Positions 3,541 through 63,432 of a stretch of 64,000 nt of DNA are shown piece by piece (position 1 is the first letter of the stretch; the number at the start of each line of letters is the position of its first letter). The notes below the pieces were generated by a model. The model worked only from the letters and a program-made list of their open reading frames with translations, made no database searches and had not been told where the DNA came from. The DNA is from Polaribacter sp. (GTDB lineage: Bacteria > Bacteroidota > Bacteroidia > Flavobacteriales > Flavobacteriaceae). Where the stretch lies: contig DYMN01000002.1 in assembly GCA_020740485.1 (NCBI GenBank), positions 48,994 through 112,993 of the forward strand, in the 5' to 3' direction. The position numbers and the translations under genes are program-made.

Positions 3541-5997
3541 ATGGATCTGAATCGTTTTATTCAAGTACTGAACAATCCTAACGAAATGTCAAATAATGAT
3601 ACTTTTATCATTGAAGACATTGTAAATGAATTTCCTTTTTTCCAAGCAGCAAGAGCTTTACATCTCAAAGGGTTAAAAAACCAAAACAGCTTCCGATACA
3701 ATGAAGTCCTGAAAACCACAGCAGTATATACAGCGGATAGAAGTATTCTTTTCAATTTTATTACTTCAACTGATTTTGAAAACGTAACACTCAAAAATAA
3801 CGAAGCTCAGCTAATAGCAGAATTAGAATCTGTAGATGAATCAATAAAGGAAAATCTTGGACATTCTGAGCTTAATGTTACAGACGAAGAAGTTGAAAAA
3901 CTAAATCATCTTATTGAATCACATGATATTAAATCACATAAAGAACAAGAATTACCAGTATTTAATGACTTAAACGATTTTCCCAAAACCACTAATGAAA
4001 CTATTGAAAACGAAGAAATAGACCTAATTAAAGAATATGAAACAGAACAACATCATATTTCTTTTGATAATTTAGATGAAGAAGTGAAAGATGAAAAAGA
4101 AATGAGTTTTGAAGAAGAAATTGAAAAAATTGCCAATGAGTTTCTTAAAAAAATAGAATCAGAACACAAAACTTTTGAGCCCGATCCTGAATTTACATTG
4201 GAAGATACAACTGAAATTGATGAAAAATGGCAAATAAATGATATAAATATCGGAAATAAAAGTGAGGGAGCCCAAGAATTGCAACAAGAAACCTCAGATG
4301 CCTCTGAAAAATTAGATTCTTCTTTGGACTATGATGTAGAAGAAAAAATAAAAATTGAAAATGAATCTAATTTAATTATAGAAACCGAAAAATCAAAAAT
4401 TCTTGATGATAATGAAACTATTGAAAACGAAGAAATAGACCTAATTAAAGGATATGAATCAGAACAACATCATTTTTCTTTTGATAATTTAGATGAAGAA
4501 GTGAAAGATGAAAAAGAAATGAGTTTTGAAGAAGAAATTGAAAAAATTGCCAATGAGTTTCTTAAAAAAATAGAATCGGAACACAGAACTTTTGAACCCG
4601 ATCCTGAATTTAAATTGGAAGACACATCTGTAATTGATGAAAAGCGGCAAACAAATGATTTCAACATCGAAAATGAAAATAAGGAAACCCAAGAATTGCA
4701 AAAAGAAACTATAGATGCCTCTGAAAAAATAGATTCTTTTTTGAACTATGATGTAGAAGAAAAAATAAAAACAGAAATCGAAGATATTACTACAACTCCT
4801 TTCAATTCTATTGAAAATGGATCTAATTTAATTACAGAAAACGAAAAATCAAAAATTCTTGGAGATCAGCACCTCGAAGCTGAATTGATTTCTTCTTTTG
4901 AAAAATTTGAAAGCGCTGCATCTTCTGAAATTTTAAATCAAGATGAAGATGACATTGAAAAAGAAAGGAGAGAACATTTCAAAAAAATTGAAAACCAATT
5001 TATTGAAGAAATATCTACCACAATTCGAGATGATTTTGATAAAAAAAACCAAATCAAAAATGAAATTATAGACTACTTTACACATTTAGACAAAGAGGTT
5101 GTTTTAGATGATCTGTTATTTGAAAAAATGACGCACGATTTGCCGGAAGATTTGAAACAAGAGATTGAAAACGAAATTATTTTACATTTTACACAAACCT
5201 CTACACCTAAAGAAACCGAGTCAAGTGAAAAAACAGAAAACAAGCCTATAATAGATCCAATTGAAGCTGAAATGATAGCTCACTTTAGTGATCTATCATC
5301 CACTGTATCTGAAGAAACGAAAATCGAAATTCCGAATGCTCCTATTGAAGACCCCATAGAAAAAGAATTAAGGGAACATTTTGCAAAATACAATCAAAAG
5401 GAGGAAATTAATGAGCTTGAAACACCTGAAAATTTGAGTGTTCAAGAAAAAACACCACAAGTAATTACAATTGAAAATTCTGAAGAAGCTGAAGAACAAG
5501 AAGAGATCGTTTTTGAGTTGCTTCCCAATGAAATTTTTTCTCAAACCTTGTCTGATGAAAAAACCAATGTAGAGGAAAAGATTGACCTCCATTTAGATGA
5601 GGATTTCAGTCCGCCCATTCAATTTCACCGAAATGACACTCATTCTTTTAACAATTGGTTAAAACTTTCAACTTTTAAACCCATCAATAGAGAAGTAGAG
5701 CCGGAAAACACTGTTTCTATTGTAAAAAAAATGGAAATAATAGACGAATTTATAGATAAAAATCCAAAAATTGAAACTTTAAAAAATGAAGTTTCAATAT
5801 CAGAAGTTATCAATCAAAATATTGATAATGAAGAGATTATGACTGAAACTTTGGCAAGAGTTTATGTAATGCAACATAAATATTCCGATGCAATGCGCGC
5901 TTATCAAATATTAAGTTTGAAATTTCCGGAAAAAAGTAGTTTCTTTGCAGACCAAATTAAGCAGATAGAAATTATTAGAAAAAACAATTTACATTAA
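3541..5997 (+). CDS. Large acidic TPR-ended protein of unknown function with internal tandem duplication
   Basis: No known enzyme motif is visible. It has three parts. The N-terminal part (about 1-90) is globular, beginning MDLNRFIQVLNNP. The long centre is extremely Glu/Asp/Lys-rich, low-complexity and probably disordered. A TPR-like C-terminus (about 745-818) includes ETLARVYVMQHKYSDAM and a following SLKFPEKSSFFADQI helix. The centre holds a tandem repeat: residues about 152-290 are duplicated as 291-442. After that, a short motif of the type E-x-E-h-x-x-H/Y-F recurs (REHFKKIEN, NEIIDYFTHL, NEIILHFTQT, AEMIAHFSDL, KELREHFAKY). No signal peptide is seen, so it is probably cytoplasmic. It is 10 bp from secG and likely cotranscribed with it. 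Homologues in this position of Bacteroidota genomes are annotated only as TPR proteins. Confidence 0.85.
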   Translation: MDLNRFIQVLNNPNEMSNNDTFIIEDIVNEFPFFQAARALHLKGLKNQNSFRYNEVLKTTAVYTADRSILFNFITSTDFENVTLKNNEAQLIAELESVDESIKENLGHSELNVTDEEVEKLNHLIESHDIKSHKEQELPVFNDLNDFPKTTNETIENEEIDLIKEYETEQHHISFDNLDEEVKDEKEMSFEEEIEKIANEFLKKIESEHKTFEPDPEFTLEDTTEIDEKWQINDINIGNKSEGAQELQQETSDASEKLDSSLDYDVEEKIKIENESNLIIETEKSKILDDNETIENEEIDLIKGYESEQHHFSFDNLDEEVKDEKEMSFEEEIEKIANEFLKKIESEHRTFEPDPEFKLEDTSVIDEKRQTNDFNIENENKETQELQKETIDASEKIDSFLNYDVEEKIKTEIEDITTTPFNSIENGSNLITENEKSKILGDQHLEAELISSFEKFESAASSEILNQDEDDIEKERREHFKKIENQFIEEISTTIRDDFDKKNQIKNEIIDYFTHLDKEVVLDDLLFEKMTHDLPEDLKQEIENEIILHFTQTSTPKETESSEKTENKPIIDPIEAEMIAHFSDLSSTVSEETKIEIPNAPIEDPIEKELREHFAKYNQKEEINELETPENLSVQEKTPQVITIENSEEAEEQEEIVFELLPNEIFSQTLSDEKTNVEEKIDLHLDEDFSPPIQFHRNDTHSFNNWLKLSTFKPINREVEPENTVSIVKKMEIIDEFIDKNPKIETLKNEVSISEVINQNIDNEEIMTETLARVYVMQHKYSDAMRAYQILSLKFPEKSSFFADQIKQIEIIRKNNLH
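3994..4866 (+). repeat. Intragenic tandem duplication (417 bp and 456 bp copies)
   Basis: The first copy spans 3994-4410 and the second 4411-4866, abutting and in frame. Both begin AATGAAACTATTGAAAACGA and end around CAAAAATTCTTG-GAT. The second copy carries an extra 39 bp (13 codons) near its end. Synonymous and a few missense differences separate them, which suggests a fairly recent event. Confidence 0.93.
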
Positions 5998-54229: not shown

Positions 54230-56143
54230 TTACAACATGTAAATTACTACGATTACTAAAATAATTACGCCACCCACAAAAGCAAAAGCATAATCTTGAA
54301 CTTTACCCGATTGTACACCTTTAATAGCTTCGGAACCGACAACGGTTGAATTTCCTATGAGATTCATGGTGCCATCCACAACTTTCTTGTCAAACCAAGC
54401 AAAAGAACCGGAAATATATTTGAAAATGATGTTTCTTGTTACAAACAAATATAATTCGTCTATGTAAAATTTATTTTTGGTCCAAACATAAAAAGTTCCG
54501 AATGCCGCACTAATTTTGGCGGGATAATCGGTGGGTTTAAAATAAAAGAAATATGCCAAACCTATTCCTAAAACACCTACCGTAGTGGCAATGGAAGCCA
54601 TCATCGGGTCAATGTGTCCGTGGAAACCAACTTTATCCGGTGTTACCCATTCTGTAAATGGAAAATAACCGGGAACAATACTCATAATTGCAAGAAAAAC
54701 TAATGGTATTGTCATGGTTAATGGCGATTCGTGCGGAGTGTGATGATAATGTGTTTTTTTGTTCCAAAATATACTGAAATACAAACGAAACATATAGAAT
54801 GCGGTCAATCCGGCAACAAACAACGTGATGTAAAAAATAGGTCTATTATGATGGAAGGTGGCTATCAAAATTTCATCTTTGCTAAAAAATCCTGAAAACC
54901 CGGGAAAACCGGCAATAGATAGAGCAGCTATCAAGAAAGTGATACTTGTGATTTTCATATATTTATGCAAACCTCCCATATCTTGCATCAAATTACTATG
55001 CACTGCGTGAATGACTGACCCGGCTCCAAGAAACAACAAGCCTTTAAACATAGCATGTGTAAATAAATGCCACATTGAAGCCATGTATCCGACTCCTTCG
55101 TGCCCATCATATCCTGAAACCCCCAATGCCAACATCATATAACCGATTTGTGACATAGTAGAAAAAGCCAACACCCGCTTAATGTCAAATTGGGTCAAGG
55201 CAATAATAGCTGCAATCAGAGTTGAAATAGCTCCTACCCAAGCCACTATGTGTAATGCACTTCCGTGGTCTACAAAATTAAACATGGGAAACATTCGAGC
55301 TACTAAATAAACCCCTGCAACCACCATAGTAGCGGCGTGAATCAAAGCTGAAACCGGAGTAGGTCCTTCCATGGCATCAGGAAGCCAAATATGTAATGGA
55401 AACATAGCCGATTTTCCGGCTCCACCCATAAACATCAACACCAAAGCTAGTCCTATAACTGAAAATCCCATAAATATGGAACCAAATTTTTGCGCAGCAG
55501 CAATTCCTTCCGGACCATTCAAATATTGAAAATCAAATGAACCTAAATAATACCCTACCAATAATATACCTACTAAAAATCCAAAATCAGCAAAACGCGT
55601 AACAATAAATGCCTTTTTGGCGGCTGCAACTGCGGATGGCTTTTCATAATAATATCCAATTAAAAGAAATGAAGAAACCCCAACCAACTCCCAAAATATA
55701 TAAATTTGGAATAAGTTTGTGGCTAACACCAATCCCATCATTGAGAAGGTAAACAGAGAAAGAAAAGCATAAAATTTAGTAAACCCTCTGTCCCCGTGCA
55801 TATATCCCATACTATAAATATGTACCATCAACGAAATGGTAGAAACCACAACCAACATCATCACAGAGATAGGATCTATTAACACGCCCATATCAACTTT
55901 GAGTGTATCAGTAAAATTCATCCAATTAACACTGTAAACAAAGGTTTGAAATTTTCCATCCAATTTTGGGGTATGATAAAAGTACTGAATTGCCGTATAA
56001 TACGACAAAACAGCAACGGATGTGAGTCCTGCTACACCAATCCAACCAGAAATATTTTCTTTAATTCGGTTATAAAAAAATCCCAGAAAAATAAATACTG
56101 CAAAGGGTATTAATGGAACTAAAAATGTATAACTAAAATTCAT
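54230..56143 (-). CDS. nuoL: NADH-quinone oxidoreductase subunit L
   Basis: Largest antiporter-like subunit, 637 aa, with about 16 helices. The C-terminal part carries the lateral amphipathic helix and final anchor (KFYIDELYLFVTRNIIFKYISGSFAWFDKKVVDG ...). Conserved segments are FWELVGVSSFLLIGYYYEKPSA, FPLHIWLPDAMEGPTPVSALIHAATMVVAGVYL and FSTMSQIGYMMLALG. Its leader is occupied by a nine-unit heptad array. Confidence 0.97.
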   Translation of the reverse strand: MNFSYTFLVPLIPFAVFIFLGFFYNRIKENISGWIGVAGLTSVAVLSYYTAIQYFYHTPKLDGKFQTFVYSVNWMNFTDTLKVDMGVLIDPISVMMLVVVSTISLMVHIYSMGYMHGDRGFTKFYAFLSLFTFSMMGLVLATNLFQIYIFWELVGVSSFLLIGYYYEKPSAVAAAKKAFIVTRFADFGFLVGILLVGYYLGSFDFQYLNGPEGIAAAQKFGSIFMGFSVIGLALVLMFMGGAGKSAMFPLHIWLPDAMEGPTPVSALIHAATMVVAGVYLVARMFPMFNFVDHGSALHIVAWVGAISTLIAAIIALTQFDIKRVLAFSTMSQIGYMMLALGVSGYDGHEGVGYMASMWHLFTHAMFKGLLFLGAGSVIHAVHSNLMQDMGGLHKYMKITSITFLIAALSIAGFPGFSGFFSKDEILIATFHHNRPIFYITLFVAGLTAFYMFRLYFSIFWNKKTHYHHTPHESPLTMTIPLVFLAIMSIVPGYFPFTEWVTPDKVGFHGHIDPMMASIATTVGVLGIGLAYFFYFKPTDYPAKISAAFGTFYVWTKNKFYIDELYLFVTRNIIFKYISGSFAWFDKKVVDGTMNLIGNSTVVGSEAIKGVQSGKVQDYAFAFVGGVIILVIVVIYML

Positions 56144-56157
56144 AATTACTTAGTGTT

Positions 56158-56220
56158 GAGTATCGAGTAGTGAGTATTGAGTAATTAGTATTGACTAGAT
56201 TGAATCGAGAATAGAGATTA
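56158..56220. repeat. Heptad array before nuoL, nine units
   Basis: Plus-strand units in phase: GAGTATC, GAGTAGT, GAGTATT, GAGTAAT, TAGTATT, GACTAGA, TTGAATC, GAGAATA, GAGATTA. On the coding strand it is C-containing and G-poor. It is followed further upstream by an array of opposite polarity. Confidence 0.93.
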
Positions 56221-56254
56221 AATTAATATTAAATATTTATTAACTCGAAGCGCC

Positions 56255-56289
56255 TACTCATTCCTTATATCTCATATTTCATTACTCCT
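56255..56289. repeat. Heptad array after nuoK, five units
   Basis: Plus-strand units in phase: TACTCAT, TCCTTAT, ATCTCAT, ATTTCAT, TACTCCT. It ends 7 bp from the nuoK stop. The coding strand contains G but no C, and ATGAGTA here is complementary to the TACTCA-type units before nuoL. Confidence 0.88.
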
Positions 56290-56296
56290 ATCGTTT

Positions 56297-56614
56297 TTAA
56301 TATTTCATTGTTTCAGTTTTATCAACATTTACAGAGACTTTCAATCTGTATAAATTGATGATAATTGATATAGCCAAAGCCGTTTCGGATGCAGCCACAG
56401 CGATAATAAAAATCGAAAAATACACGCCCTGTAAAAAGTCAGGAAACATATATTTGTTGATTACCACAAAATTAATCACCGACGCATTGAGCAATAGTTC
56501 GATACTCATCAACAAGGTAATTAAATTTTTACGAGTCAAGAAACCATACAACCCTATGAAAAACAATAAGGTTGACACGGTCAAAATTTCATATATACTT
56601 ACGTTTGCTATCAT
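56297..56614 (-). CDS. nuoK: NADH-quinone oxidoreductase subunit K
   Basis: Three-helix membrane subunit, 105 aa. Conserved membrane glutamates are in LLMSIELLLNASVINFV and in AASETALAISIIINLYR. It lies between nuoL and the four-helix-bundle gene instead of directly after nuoJ. Confidence 0.97.
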   Translation of the reverse strand: MIANVSIYEILTVSTLLFFIGLYGFLTRKNLITLLMSIELLLNASVINFVVINKYMFPDFLQGVYFSIFIIAVAASETALAISIIINLYRLKVSVNVDKTETMKY

Positions 56615-56620
56615 AAACTG

Positions 56621-56655
56621 GTTTAAAGTTTAAGGTTTAAAGTTTAAGGTTCAAT
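56621..56655. repeat. Left inverted heptad array of the four-helix-bundle cassette
   Basis: Plus-strand units in phase: GTTTAAA, GTTTAAG, GTTTAAA, GTTTAAG, GTTCAAT. It starts 6 bp from the nuoK start codon and contains the stop codon of the four-helix-bundle gene. It is the reverse complement in theme of the array at 57053. Confidence 0.95.
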
Positions 56656-57046
56656 GTTTTATGAACTTATTTCCTTTGAAATCATTTTTACTTAAATATA
56701 TCATCATTGATGCTATTTTCCTTGATATAACAATTGTTTTTTCTTTTAAAATTTCAAATTCGTCTTGATTTATATACTTTCTATCGAAAACTCTATATAG
56801 TTGCGATCTTGTTTCTCCACAAGAACCTTTTGCAATTGATAGAAAATTATTAAATTCATTATTTCCATCTCTTTCAAATCCTTCTGCAATATTGTCCATA
56901 ATAGAACCGGATGATCCGTTAATTTGGTCTTTAAGTTTATAGTCTTGATTAAGGTCTGTATTTTTTATAATTTTATCAATATCATCACATATAACTCTAG
57001 CTAATTGCCAAGATTCTAAATCCTCAAAATTCTTAATTGTAGCCAT
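56651..57046 (-). CDS. Four-helix-bundle protein (S23/TIGR02436 family)
   Basis: A 131-aa soluble helical protein. The family signature is complete: NFEDLESWQLARVICDDID, YKLKDQINGSSGSIMDNIAEGFERDGNNEFNNFLSIAKGSCGETRSQL and a C-terminal helix ending in MMIYL. Relatives are encoded in 23S rRNA intervening sequences, as DGR Avd proteins, and as orphan genes in environmental bacteria. No rRNA or DGR reverse transcriptase is near. I chose the ATG at 57046; a GTG two codons upstream is possible. It splits nuoJ from nuoK and is bounded on both sides by inverted heptad arrays. Confidence 0.95.
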   Translation of the reverse strand: MATIKNFEDLESWQLARVICDDIDKIIKNTDLNQDYKLKDQINGSSGSIMDNIAEGFERDGNNEFNNFLSIAKGSCGETRSQLYRVFDRKYINQDEFEILKEKTIVISRKIASMMIYLSKNDFKGNKFIKH

Positions 57047-57052
57047 AACCAC

Positions 57053-57087
57053 AAACTTTAAACTTTAAACTTTAAACTTTAAACTAT
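57053..57087. repeat. Right inverted heptad array of the four-helix-bundle cassette
   Basis: Plus-strand units: four perfect AAACTTT and one AAACTAT. The nuoJ stop codon is within the last unit, and the four-helix-bundle start is 6 bp to the left. Confidence 0.95.
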
Positions 57088-57590
57088 ACATTCTTACGTC
57101 CTTTTGATATAATAATAGCGCCAATCATGGCGGCTAATAAGAGAATTGAAATAACTTCAAATGGCAAGATAAATCCACCGGATTCATAACTTAACAATCC
57201 TTTACCTATTTCGCTGACTTCTGTTGATTTTGCAGAAGCATTGACGGTTACAAAATTATGATTTAAGATAATGGAGATAACTACTCCAAATCCTAATAAA
57301 CTCGCACTTCCCATTAATAGGCGACGCATCATTGTAGGTTGTTCTAATTCACCTTCCACATGATGTACTAATAATACAGAGAAAATGAATAGAATAATGA
57401 TACCACCAGCATAAACAGCCATTTGTATTGCTCCCAAAAAGGTATAATCCATCATAAAATAAAGGGCTGCAATACCGAGCAATGAAAATAATAGATAAAT
57501 CACCGCTCTCAATATTTTATGGCTCATCACAGATGCTAATGCAAATACAATGATGATGCTTGCGAAAAGATAAAAAAATATACGTTCCAT
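57084..57590 (-). CDS. nuoJ: NADH-quinone oxidoreductase subunit J
   Basis: Five-helix membrane subunit, 168 aa. HKILRAVIYLLFSLLGIAALYFMMDYTFLGAIQMAVYAGGIIILFIFSVLL is diagnostic (pi-bulge helix TM3). A loop then a last helix FEVISILLLAAMIGAIIISKGRK follow. It is one base from nuoI. Confidence 0.97.
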   Translation of the reverse strand: MERIFFYLFASIIIVFALASVMSHKILRAVIYLLFSLLGIAALYFMMDYTFLGAIQMAVYAGGIIILFIFSVLLVHHVEGELEQPTMMRRLLMGSASLLGFGVVISIILNHNFVTVNASAKSTEVSEIGKGLLSYESGGFILPFEVISILLLAAMIGAIIISKGRKNV

Positions 57591-57591
57591 A

Positions 57592-58068
57592 TTACTCTTT
57601 TACGTCCGGATGTACTTTCGATCCGGGTTTGTTTAATACTTTAGTTAATTGCGTTCTGTCGTACACAGAATTTTCAAAATTTTGAGCCATCACAATAGCA
57701 TTAGTAGGACAAGCTTGAACACACAAATTACACAAGGTGCACATTGAAAGGTGATAAATATGTTTATCAATCACTTTCACTTTCTTTCCAGTTGTTTCAT
57801 CTACTACTCTATCCCAAATAATTTCAATACTTCCATTGGGACAAGCAATTTCACATGATTGGCATCCTGTACAACGATGCAAGTTGTTCTCATCGTGTGG
57901 CATCACTACTTCACCTCGAAAACGATCAAACATTTTCAACGTATCACGATTGTCAGGATAATATTGTGTAATGGTTCCCCAAGGAGCTTTCACGAAGTAC
58001 TTTCCGGTAACACTCATACCGGTTAGCAACGATTTAATCCCGTAATATATATTTGAAAAATAACTCAT
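57592..58068 (-). CDS. nuoI: NADH-quinone oxidoreductase subunit I
   Basis: Peripheral subunit with two [4Fe-4S] clusters (N6a/N6b): CTGCQSCEIACP and CTLCNLCVQACP, at about residues 66-77 and 111-122. The 158 aa length fits. It passes electrons toward NuoB. In complexes lacking NuoEFG this subunit is a possible ferredoxin entry point (family knowledge, applied by inference). Confidence 0.97.
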   Translation of the reverse strand: MSYFSNIYYGIKSLLTGMSVTGKYFVKAPWGTITQYYPDNRDTLKMFDRFRGEVVMPHDENNLHRCTGCQSCEIACPNGSIEIIWDRVVDETTGKKVKVIDKHIYHLSMCTLCNLCVQACPTNAIVMAQNFENSVYDRTQLTKVLNKPGSKVHPDVKE

Positions 58069-58153
58069 AATTTAAAAATTAACTCACTTATTTACAATTT
58101 CATCAAATGTGCTCGTTGATTACTTTGTAATTCCAAATTAGAAAATATCCAAT

Positions 58154-58188
58154 ACTTTTTACCTTTTACCCTTTACCTTTTAACTTTA
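58154..58188. repeat. Heptad array at the nuoH stop
   Basis: Plus-strand units in phase: ACTTTTT, ACCTTTT, ACCCTTT, ACCTTTT, AACTTTA. The nuoH stop codon is inside the last unit. The coding strand contains G and no C. Confidence 0.9.
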
Positions 58189-59366: not shown

Positions 59367-59458
59367 ATCAATATATTGTCTAAAAGAGACATTTATATAA
59401 ATAACAATTAACTTTTTACTTTTAATACAGAAGCAAGCATTGCGTCACTCCTCCTTCC

Positions 59459-59479
59459 AACTTCAAACTTCAAACTTTA
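59459..59479. repeat. Heptad array at the nuoD stop
   Basis: AACTTCA, AACTTCA, AACTTTA, ending exactly at the nuoD stop codon. On the coding strand: G and almost no C. Confidence 0.75.
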
Positions 59480-61108: not shown

Positions 61109-61125
61109 TATTTTATTGTTTCAGG

Positions 61126-61188
61126 TTTTATATTTCAAGTTTCAAGTTATTGAACAATAAACATGAAACGTGAAACGTGAAACTTTAT
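61126..61188. repeat. Polarity-switching heptad array, nuoB-nuoC spacer
   Basis: Plus-strand units in one phase: TTTATAT, TTTCAAG, TTTCAAG, TTATTGA, ACAATAA, ACATGAA, ACGTGAA, ACGTGAA, ACTTTAT. The left TTTCAAG units are inverted relative to the right ACGTGAA units around a TTATTGAACAATAA centre, so a stem-loop can form. The nuoB stop lies in the last unit. Confidence 0.93.
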
Positions 61189-62107: not shown

Positions 62108-62113
62108 CTTTAA

Positions 62114-62134
62114 GTTAGAAGTTAGAAGTTAGAA
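62114..62134. repeat. Heptad array before nuoA
   Basis: Three perfect GTTAGAA units on the plus strand, 6 bp upstream of the nuoA start. The coding strand (TTCTAAC) has C and no G. Confidence 0.85.
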
Positions 62135-62262
62135 GTGTGTTACAATTAATGAATGTTATTAAACATCATCTTTTAACCTCAATTTAAAATTTATTATAAA
62201 TCTAATTAACAAATTAATTATTGACGATTTTAAGTTAAATAATATACTGACCTAAAATAAAT

Positions 62263-63387: not shown

Positions 63388-63397
63388 TTTTATTATT

Positions 63398-63432
63398 GTT
63401 TTTTGTTTTTTGTTTTTTGTTTGTTGTTTTTG
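63398..63432. repeat. Heptad array before korB
   Basis: GTTTTTT three times, then GTTTGTT, GTTTTTG on the plus strand. The coding strand consists of A and C only (AAAAAAC). It lies 11 bp upstream of the korB start. Confidence 0.9.

Follow-up and report, generated by a model that had tools for sequence, protein, structure and literature searches.

An IVS-like element with inverted heptad arms of its own between nuoJ and nuoK of Polaribacter sp., and possibly a wider class behind it

Introduction

The closest described systems are the intervening sequences (IVS) of 23S rRNA that encode S23p in Coxiella, Leptospira and others, which the part of the source available to us portrays as selfish and sporadic (PMC4990558). 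The same partial account gives an IVS of 428 nt with an open reading frame (ORF) in a long stem of terminal complementary sequences, and describes PF05635-type proteins as being without known function (PMC4990558). Another related system is that of Avd, the accessory protein of diversity-generating retroelements (DGRs), which, in the portion of the literature at hand, is essential to retrohoming and whose structure (4DWL) is homologous to 2GSC (PMC10053308). Intergenic heptads, on the other side, have been described as TAACTGA units in Beggiatoaceae and cyanobacteria (PMC4679880, available in part), and as GGGAATC and GGGGA(C/T)T units in Xanthomonas and Nostoc, with convergent inverted pairs numbering 75 in X. 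axonopodis (PMC4692102, likewise available in part). The terms 'S23' and 'four helix' have 0 occurrences in the main texts of these two papers (PMC4679880, PMC4692102). Among the matches listed in a literature search, none linked four-helix-bundle or S23 genes outside rRNA to inverted heptad arrays. MITEs, REPIN-RAYT elements and insertion sequences are short, have terminal inverted repeats and occur with and without a gene. The unit described here differs from them in that it has no transposase, its arms vary in sequence from site to site and are tandem-repetitive and no clear target duplication could be seen by eye.

Here we analyse a four-helix-bundle (4HB) gene in a stretch of 64,000 nt from a Polaribacter sp., hereafter the window, whose source genome (G000) has 2.18 Mb in 40 contigs and is 84.6% complete. 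We read the gene and its surroundings as an IVS-like element located in a protein-coding operon and equipped with inverted heptad arms of its own, behind which a wider class may stand.

The element between nuoJ and nuoK

The nuo operon lies on the minus strand of the window and, in coding-strand order, nuoJ is followed by an array, the 4HB gene, an inverted array and nuoK (Table 1). An earlier note on this DNA had pointed to reverse-complementary heptad units on two sides of the gene and had placed the stops of nuoJ and of the 4HB gene within these arrays, both of which proved correct, the stops (57084-57086 and 56651-56653, respectively) being in the arrays or at their edge. The duplex between the arrays is predicted at -28.3 kcal/mol, while 200 shuffles give a mean of -9.4 (SD 2.8, minimum -17.5), and 25 bp are paired between the arms in the predicted minimum-energy RNA fold. 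The likeness to the nuoB-nuoC spacer, which the same note had called 'polarity-switching', was not borne out, since that spacer (61109-61184) is absent from the 11 hairpins scoring at least 14 among 173 spacers of 45-300 nt.

Table 1. Coordinates of the nuoJ-nuoK element and its neighbours in the window, and loci of the GxxExxY genes
Feature	Position	Strand	Remarks
Upstream arm, (AAAGTTT)n on coding strand	57053..57085	-	4.7 copies, 100% matches; overlaps nuoJ stop codon
4HB gene	56651..57052	-	133 aa (GTG start, 57052) or 131 aa (ATG start, 57046)
Downstream arm, AAACTTT/AAACCTT on coding strand	56620..56659	-	reverse complement of upstream arm; holds 4HB stop
nuoJ, upstream neighbour	57084..57590	-	insertion site, outside cassette
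nuoK, downstream neighbour	56297..56614	-	insertion site, outside cassette
GxxExxY (PD-(D/E)XK-like) loci	L116 10860-11231; L120 596-994; L122 1226-1597; L242-L271		

The encoded protein matches PF05635, the '23S rRNA intervening sequence protein' family, with an E-value of 1.3e-31 (109.4 bits, cut-off 33.8) and TIGR02436 with 99.2 bits (curated cut-off 24), its nearest solved relatives by sequence being 2gsc and 2rld. The element measures 466 nt from array edge to array edge and has an S23p-type ORF inside complementary termini, as expected of an IVS. As far as the available part of the IVS account goes, it thus resembles an IVS in its protein family, in the location of the ORF inside a terminal-complementary stem and in its size (466 vs 428 nt). 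It is unlike an IVS, however, in lying between protein genes of an operon, outside any rRNA gene and with no Rfam match in 56000-57700, and in having arms made of tandem 7-nt units. With the heptameric intergenic repeats, as partially documented, it shares degenerate intergenic heptads and inverted pairs, but its inverted arrays enclose one particular gene. With the Avd protein of DGRs, as covered by the available part of that account, it has in common a homologous four-helix bundle, 2GSC being the nearest solved relative of the window protein by sequence. The Avd profile (NCBIfam NF033474) picks up two 4HB relatives with an E-value of about 1e-6 (28.5 and 26.8 bits, below the cut-off of 80) and has no match to the window protein at E 0.001. 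In contrast to a DGR, the window unit holds neither reverse transcriptase nor template repeat, and no transposase of its own was found, the 4HB gene being the only ORF of at least 80 aa between the arrays.

Other gaps in the operon region also have heptad arrays, with differing units (window 56152-56194, 58153-58187, 59454-59477, 61159-61183, 62112-62136 and 63396-63431). Elsewhere in the window (3993-4771) there is a tandem repeat of 417 bp in 1.9 copies with 91% matches.

Copies in the genus and in Bacteroidota

Three PF05635 matches were found in G000, namely the nuoJ-nuoK copy, a copy between atpA and atpG (L003) with a GAAGTTT array upstream and an AACTTCC array downstream, and a decayed copy with three in-frame stops (L002), whose neighbours we read as sugar-nucleotide/SDR type genes. 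When flank complementarity was scored for 316 ORFs of at least 60 aa in 417,377 bp of this genome (the window and 20 stretches, a few of them slightly overlapping), the 4HB gene of the window (24) and the other intact 4HB gene (18) had the two highest scores, followed by a GC-rich terminator-like palindrome (16) and a score of 15, the remainder being at most 13. Four genomes of the genus have 3, 0, 4 and 6 matches, and inverted flanks scoring at least 14 are present at 12 of the 13 loci of this genus set, which includes L002 and L003 (both outside the pooled set below) and in which L009 scores 8, compared with 31 when 300-nt flanks are used. The repeat units differ at nearly every site, as illustrated by AGGCAAT, GTAAAGTTT, GGTGATG, TTATTGAG, AATTCCA, TTTTAGA and GAAATTA.

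PF05635 is present in 113/149 genomes of the family and in 193/247 sampled genomes of the phylum, with up to 16 copies. In non-random samples made up mostly of best-scoring copies, flank scores of at least 13 were obtained for 13/30 family loci (mispaired, 58/870), 15/29 phylum loci (mispaired, 23/812) and 56/86 pooled loci (mispaired, 52/1,020), the pooled set being what was left of 94 HMM matches after dropping duplicates and short flanks. Since two loci lack one or both neighbours, 84 could be assigned to sites, of which 39 are distinct. With one locus per site, the own-pair mean is 16.4 vs 8.6 for cross pairs, and the observed mean was reached in 0/10,000 permutations; scores of at least 13 are seen for 25/39 own pairs (14/39 sites being below 13) vs 25/1,482 cross pairs. 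Among the 27 sites that include a locus scoring at least 13, 19 have arms with a period of 7 and four have arms with a period of 8, and G outnumbers C in the upstream arm at 25.

The insertion sites, named according to our reading of their neighbour proteins, include groS-groL, gmk-nadD, panB-rluD, pheS-radA, atpA-atpG and the fad operon. An order guanylate kinase, four helix bundle, nicotinate-nucleotide adenylyltransferase is given for Flavobacterium columnare in the available part of a published report (PMC5524665). The gmk-nadD spacer of G000 (L160) itself has several tandem GACGCACGGAAATGCGTC-type palindromes that were not seen in the G002/G003 spacer. The 4HB gene is co-directional with both neighbours at 34/39 sites (binomial p 0.004 vs 114/170). 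The base rates were 152/275 and 114/170 genes, and that of g128 may contain up to four unmasked 4HB genes, those of the 12-kb loci L111, L114, L119 and L122 that the duplicate filter left unmasked; three unmasked 4HB genes appear as 'other' in the g128 reverse test and one adjoins a counted spacer. A tie between arms and protein clade was also considered and is weak (Spearman 0.13, reached by 9/500 permutations of non-orthologous pairs); clear arm sharing is limited to the two non-orthologous pairs with more than 70% identity, and much of the AGTATTG clade is one orthologous fad site.

Plasmids, other phyla and 23S rRNA

Eleven of 32 plasmid records with a 4HB relative were fetched, and flank scores of at least 13 were found at 9/11 loci (mispaired, 10/110), two of which are a single locus carried on two plasmids of the same Calothrix. 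These results bear on another explanation, in which common heptad arrays of opposite polarity meet by accident or through misassembly in draft genomes. Unipolar heptad arrays are indeed frequent in the window and G000-G003 are incomplete drafts, but the reverse tests and permutations refute chance for the pattern as a whole and the architecture recurs in named isolates and in these plasmid records, which are labelled complete, making such an artefact extremely improbable.

Nine plasmid loci are annotated. Five share the direction of their neighbours, two of these being one locus that recurs on two plasmids of a single strain; three (L272, L274 and L277) are antisense to the genes on both sides and one (L276) is mixed. 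The orientation bias of Bacteroidota therefore does not carry over, and co-directionality, which may reflect selection after insertion, was dropped as a general rule. In Nostoc edaphicum a 4HB gene with TAGGGAG heptads lies between nrdB and nrdA, antisense to both, and the heptads of Nostoc C052 are ACAGGGA. Anabaena 90 and Pseudanabaena have a co-directional cas6-4HB-cas4 order with CAGGTGA and TAGCTTT heptads, whereas the arms in Gemmatirosa are octads. The cas6-4HB-cas4 loci (L273 and L275, on plasmids of Pseudanabaena galeata and Anabaena sp. 90) are part of CRISPR operons, a type I-D Cas1 being annotated in L275.

A 23S rRNA gene of Azospirillum lipoferum (Rfam RF02541, 283-3330 in L281) contains a 4HB copy that has CAGAGGA CGGATGA heptads on both sides. 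The flanks of this insertion are, we assume from the E. coli sequence, those of helix 45. Being located in 23S rRNA and having heptad arms, this copy links the IVS and the operon elements, and we read the latter as elements of the rRNA-IVS type that have spread into protein operons. The same organisation is found again at many sites, mostly co-directional with the host operon in the Bacteroidota sample, and within a 23S rRNA gene.

Empty sites and a relocation

The nuoJ-nuoK spacer of G002 and of both G003 copies is 18-19 nt long, with neither gene nor arrays. The site is also empty in nine nuo-bearing relatives from other genera: five have overlapping nuoJ and nuoK, and the remaining four have gaps of 12-54 nt between them, of which the longest (L016) has a unipolar heptad array. 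The check for empty sites in relatives, proposed at the outset, thus gave a positive answer, and so did that of the other 4HB copies, most of which have inverted arrays. The nuoI-nuoJ spacer is 1 nt long in G000 and both G003 copies, and in G002 this gap is occupied by a different 4HB gene with AATTCC / GGAATTT inverted heptads. The nuoH-nuoI spacer is short and lacks the array of the window in G002 and both G003 copies.

A second comparison involves L007 (in G003, before tsaB) and L008 (in G002, before yjbR), which are identical at 490/569 aligned nt. Their homology begins within the upstream array and ends within the downstream array, and beyond it the two sequences show no relation (flank scores 9.8 and 10.8). 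No element is present before tsaB in G002 and G000, nor before yjbR in G003, and no arrays could be seen by eye at these empty sites; the yjbR homologue of G000 has another upstream context and is uninformative. Because the homology includes the arrays, the flanks are unrelated and the reciprocal sites are empty, the moving unit consists of array, gene and array. The only reciprocal pair resolved to both empty sites comes from incomplete drafts (as are all of G000-G003). Two further copies in G003, L009 and L010, are 72% identical and lie at different sites with arms in common. The comparison of the sister genomes thus shows that the array-gene-array unit is present or absent at intercistronic sites, and that one unit occupies different sites in two species, each empty in the other.

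The 4HB is the sole recognisable gene in the relocated unit of about 570 nt, which has no transposase, and no clear target duplication was seen by eye between filled and empty sites, where the whole spacer differs. With neither transposase nor reverse transcriptase in the unit and no target duplication established, mobility is read from comparison only. An origin of the arms from the target, suggested by an L002 arm that extends into the final codons of the gene upstream, was rejected since L007 and L008 share arms at unrelated sites and since units of the AAGAGCC type, like those of L002, are also present elsewhere in a hairpin that lacks the gene (G347).

Gene-less hairpins

Hairpins of this type also exist without the gene. 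At atpA-atpG, where G000 has arms and gene, the spacer of G003 holds an inverted-heptad hairpin whose loop is tiny, and that of G001 is roughly 200 nt long and lacks the gene (N runs unmasked). At the FEENWN-MINL site of g128, 11/14 genomes have the gene, which is intact in nine, has an in-frame stop in G363 and is decayed in G300; the three others have spacers of 80-99 nt, two of which show clear hairpins by eye. At gmk-nadD, 3/17 have the gene, and octad-like hairpins without it are visible by eye in at least six others. Hairpins with a period of 7 or 8 nt (>=0.5) were found in 11/116 spacers of g128, one more having been excluded as it adjoins a 4HB gene, and periodic gene-less hairpins in 3/173 spacers of G000. 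Such hairpins may be scars of deletion, relatives of the cassette that lack the gene, or residents of their sites.

The last possibility can be extended to the whole pattern: heptad or octad hairpins would be residents of intercistronic gaps, and 4HB genes would insert into their loops or be lost from them, much as IVS do in hairpin helices of 23S rRNA. The three sites just described and the 11/116 spacers of g128 speak for it. However, the empty nuoJ-nuoK, nuoI-nuoJ, tsaB and yjbR sites have no arrays, the relocated element brings its own and gene-less periodic hairpins are rare in G000, which leaves this explanation rather unlikely. Since the arrays travelled with the gene between tsaB and yjbR, that relocation is accounted for by a cassette with hairpin arms of its own and not by the capture of a gene in a resident hairpin. 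Accordingly, the initial suggestion of a small cassette inserted in, or captured by, a hairpin stands as far as insertion is concerned, on the strength of that one resolved case, while capture is kept for some sites where gene-less hairpins occur.

Selection and age of the copies

The 4HB protein is under purifying selection, with dN/dS of 0.03-0.27 at the orthologous FEENWN site of g128 (28/45 pairs, dS <1.6) and of 0.05-0.25 for the 13 usable pairs at the fad site, out of 15 close ones picked by hand. The arms behave differently at these two sites. At the FEENWN site they vary between species and yet own arms pair better (16.2 vs 12.2 for cross pairs), whereas co-variation is absent at the fad site (11.6 vs 11.8; 70 loci), where several copies keep the gene without arms. 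The fadJ-fadA insertion is common to many genera of Flavobacteriaceae (70/80 fetched loci, all 80 being co-directional). Decayed copies are L002 and the one in G300, and in-frame stops are also found in the family and phylum samples.

Could the 4HB gene then be a normal member of its operon, inherited vertically and with a local role in regulation, its arrays being regulatory or terminator sequences? A dN/dS of about 0.1 and the wide occurrence of the fadJ-fadA insertion would fit. Nevertheless, presence or absence in sisters, reciprocal empty sites, the variety of arms and operons in one genus and decayed copies contradict it for young copies, and we consider it very unlikely. The values of dN/dS, arm loss at fad, empty sites and decay taken together therefore suggest that young copies act as mobile elements, while old copies are retained genes.

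Selection on RNA pairing found no support in a test for G-U bias: mismatches between arms show no excess of wobble-type transitions (40, vs 66 of the non-wobble type), a result that tells against selection for pairing in the coding-strand RNA.

Other genes with inverted flanks

In the genus g128, inverted flanks are not entirely confined to 4HB genes, since the reverse test (200 ORFs, neighbours of masked 4HB genes excluded) also flags KdpD (25.5), which lies between heptad spacers, two short-chain-dehydrogenase-like genes (19.5 and 15.0) and three GxxExxY genes. The dehydrogenase-like genes (L123 8094-8891 and L114 3265-4017) have CGGAACGATCGTTCCG-type self-palindromes on both sides that are operator-like. 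The flagged GxxExxY genes match PF13366 and, for the one tested, TIGR04256. GxxExxY loci have inverted flanks of at least 13 in 23/30 cases (mispaired, 70/870), and the best period of their arms is 9 or 10 in 14/23. There could be a broad class of transposase-free mobile hairpin cassettes, with arms of 7-8 nt around 4HB genes and of 9-10 nt around GxxExxY genes, that enter gaps of essential operons, possibly via RNA and an Avd-like factor, and of which the rRNA IVS would be one branch; we put this forward tentatively, being slightly inclined to doubt it.

Proposed mechanism and implications

Taken together, the 4HB gene is probably the cargo of a small mobile cassette, composed of an inverted array, the gene and the reverse-complementary array, that would fold and be copied with help from its protein and an enzyme acting in trans, and would become resident at old sites. 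In such a scheme, units of degenerate 7- (or 8-) nt repeats placed around one 4HB gene would be transcribed as part of the host operon, and the transcript would fold into a long stem with the gene in its loop. The 4HB protein, a relative of a pentamer-forming protein and of Avd, may bind this stem, and copying into new intergenic gaps would proceed via an RNA or hairpin-DNA intermediate, the enzyme being supplied in trans. Given the lack of G-U support and the antisense copies, a hairpin DNA intermediate is as open as RNA. At old sites the cassette would end up as a retained resident under purifying selection.

If the 4HB gene is indeed the cargo of a mobile cassette, this would unite S23p genes in rRNA IVS, intergenic degenerate heptad arrays and orphan 4HB genes in essential operons, and young insertions with their empty sites would represent defined material for testing transposase-free mobility.
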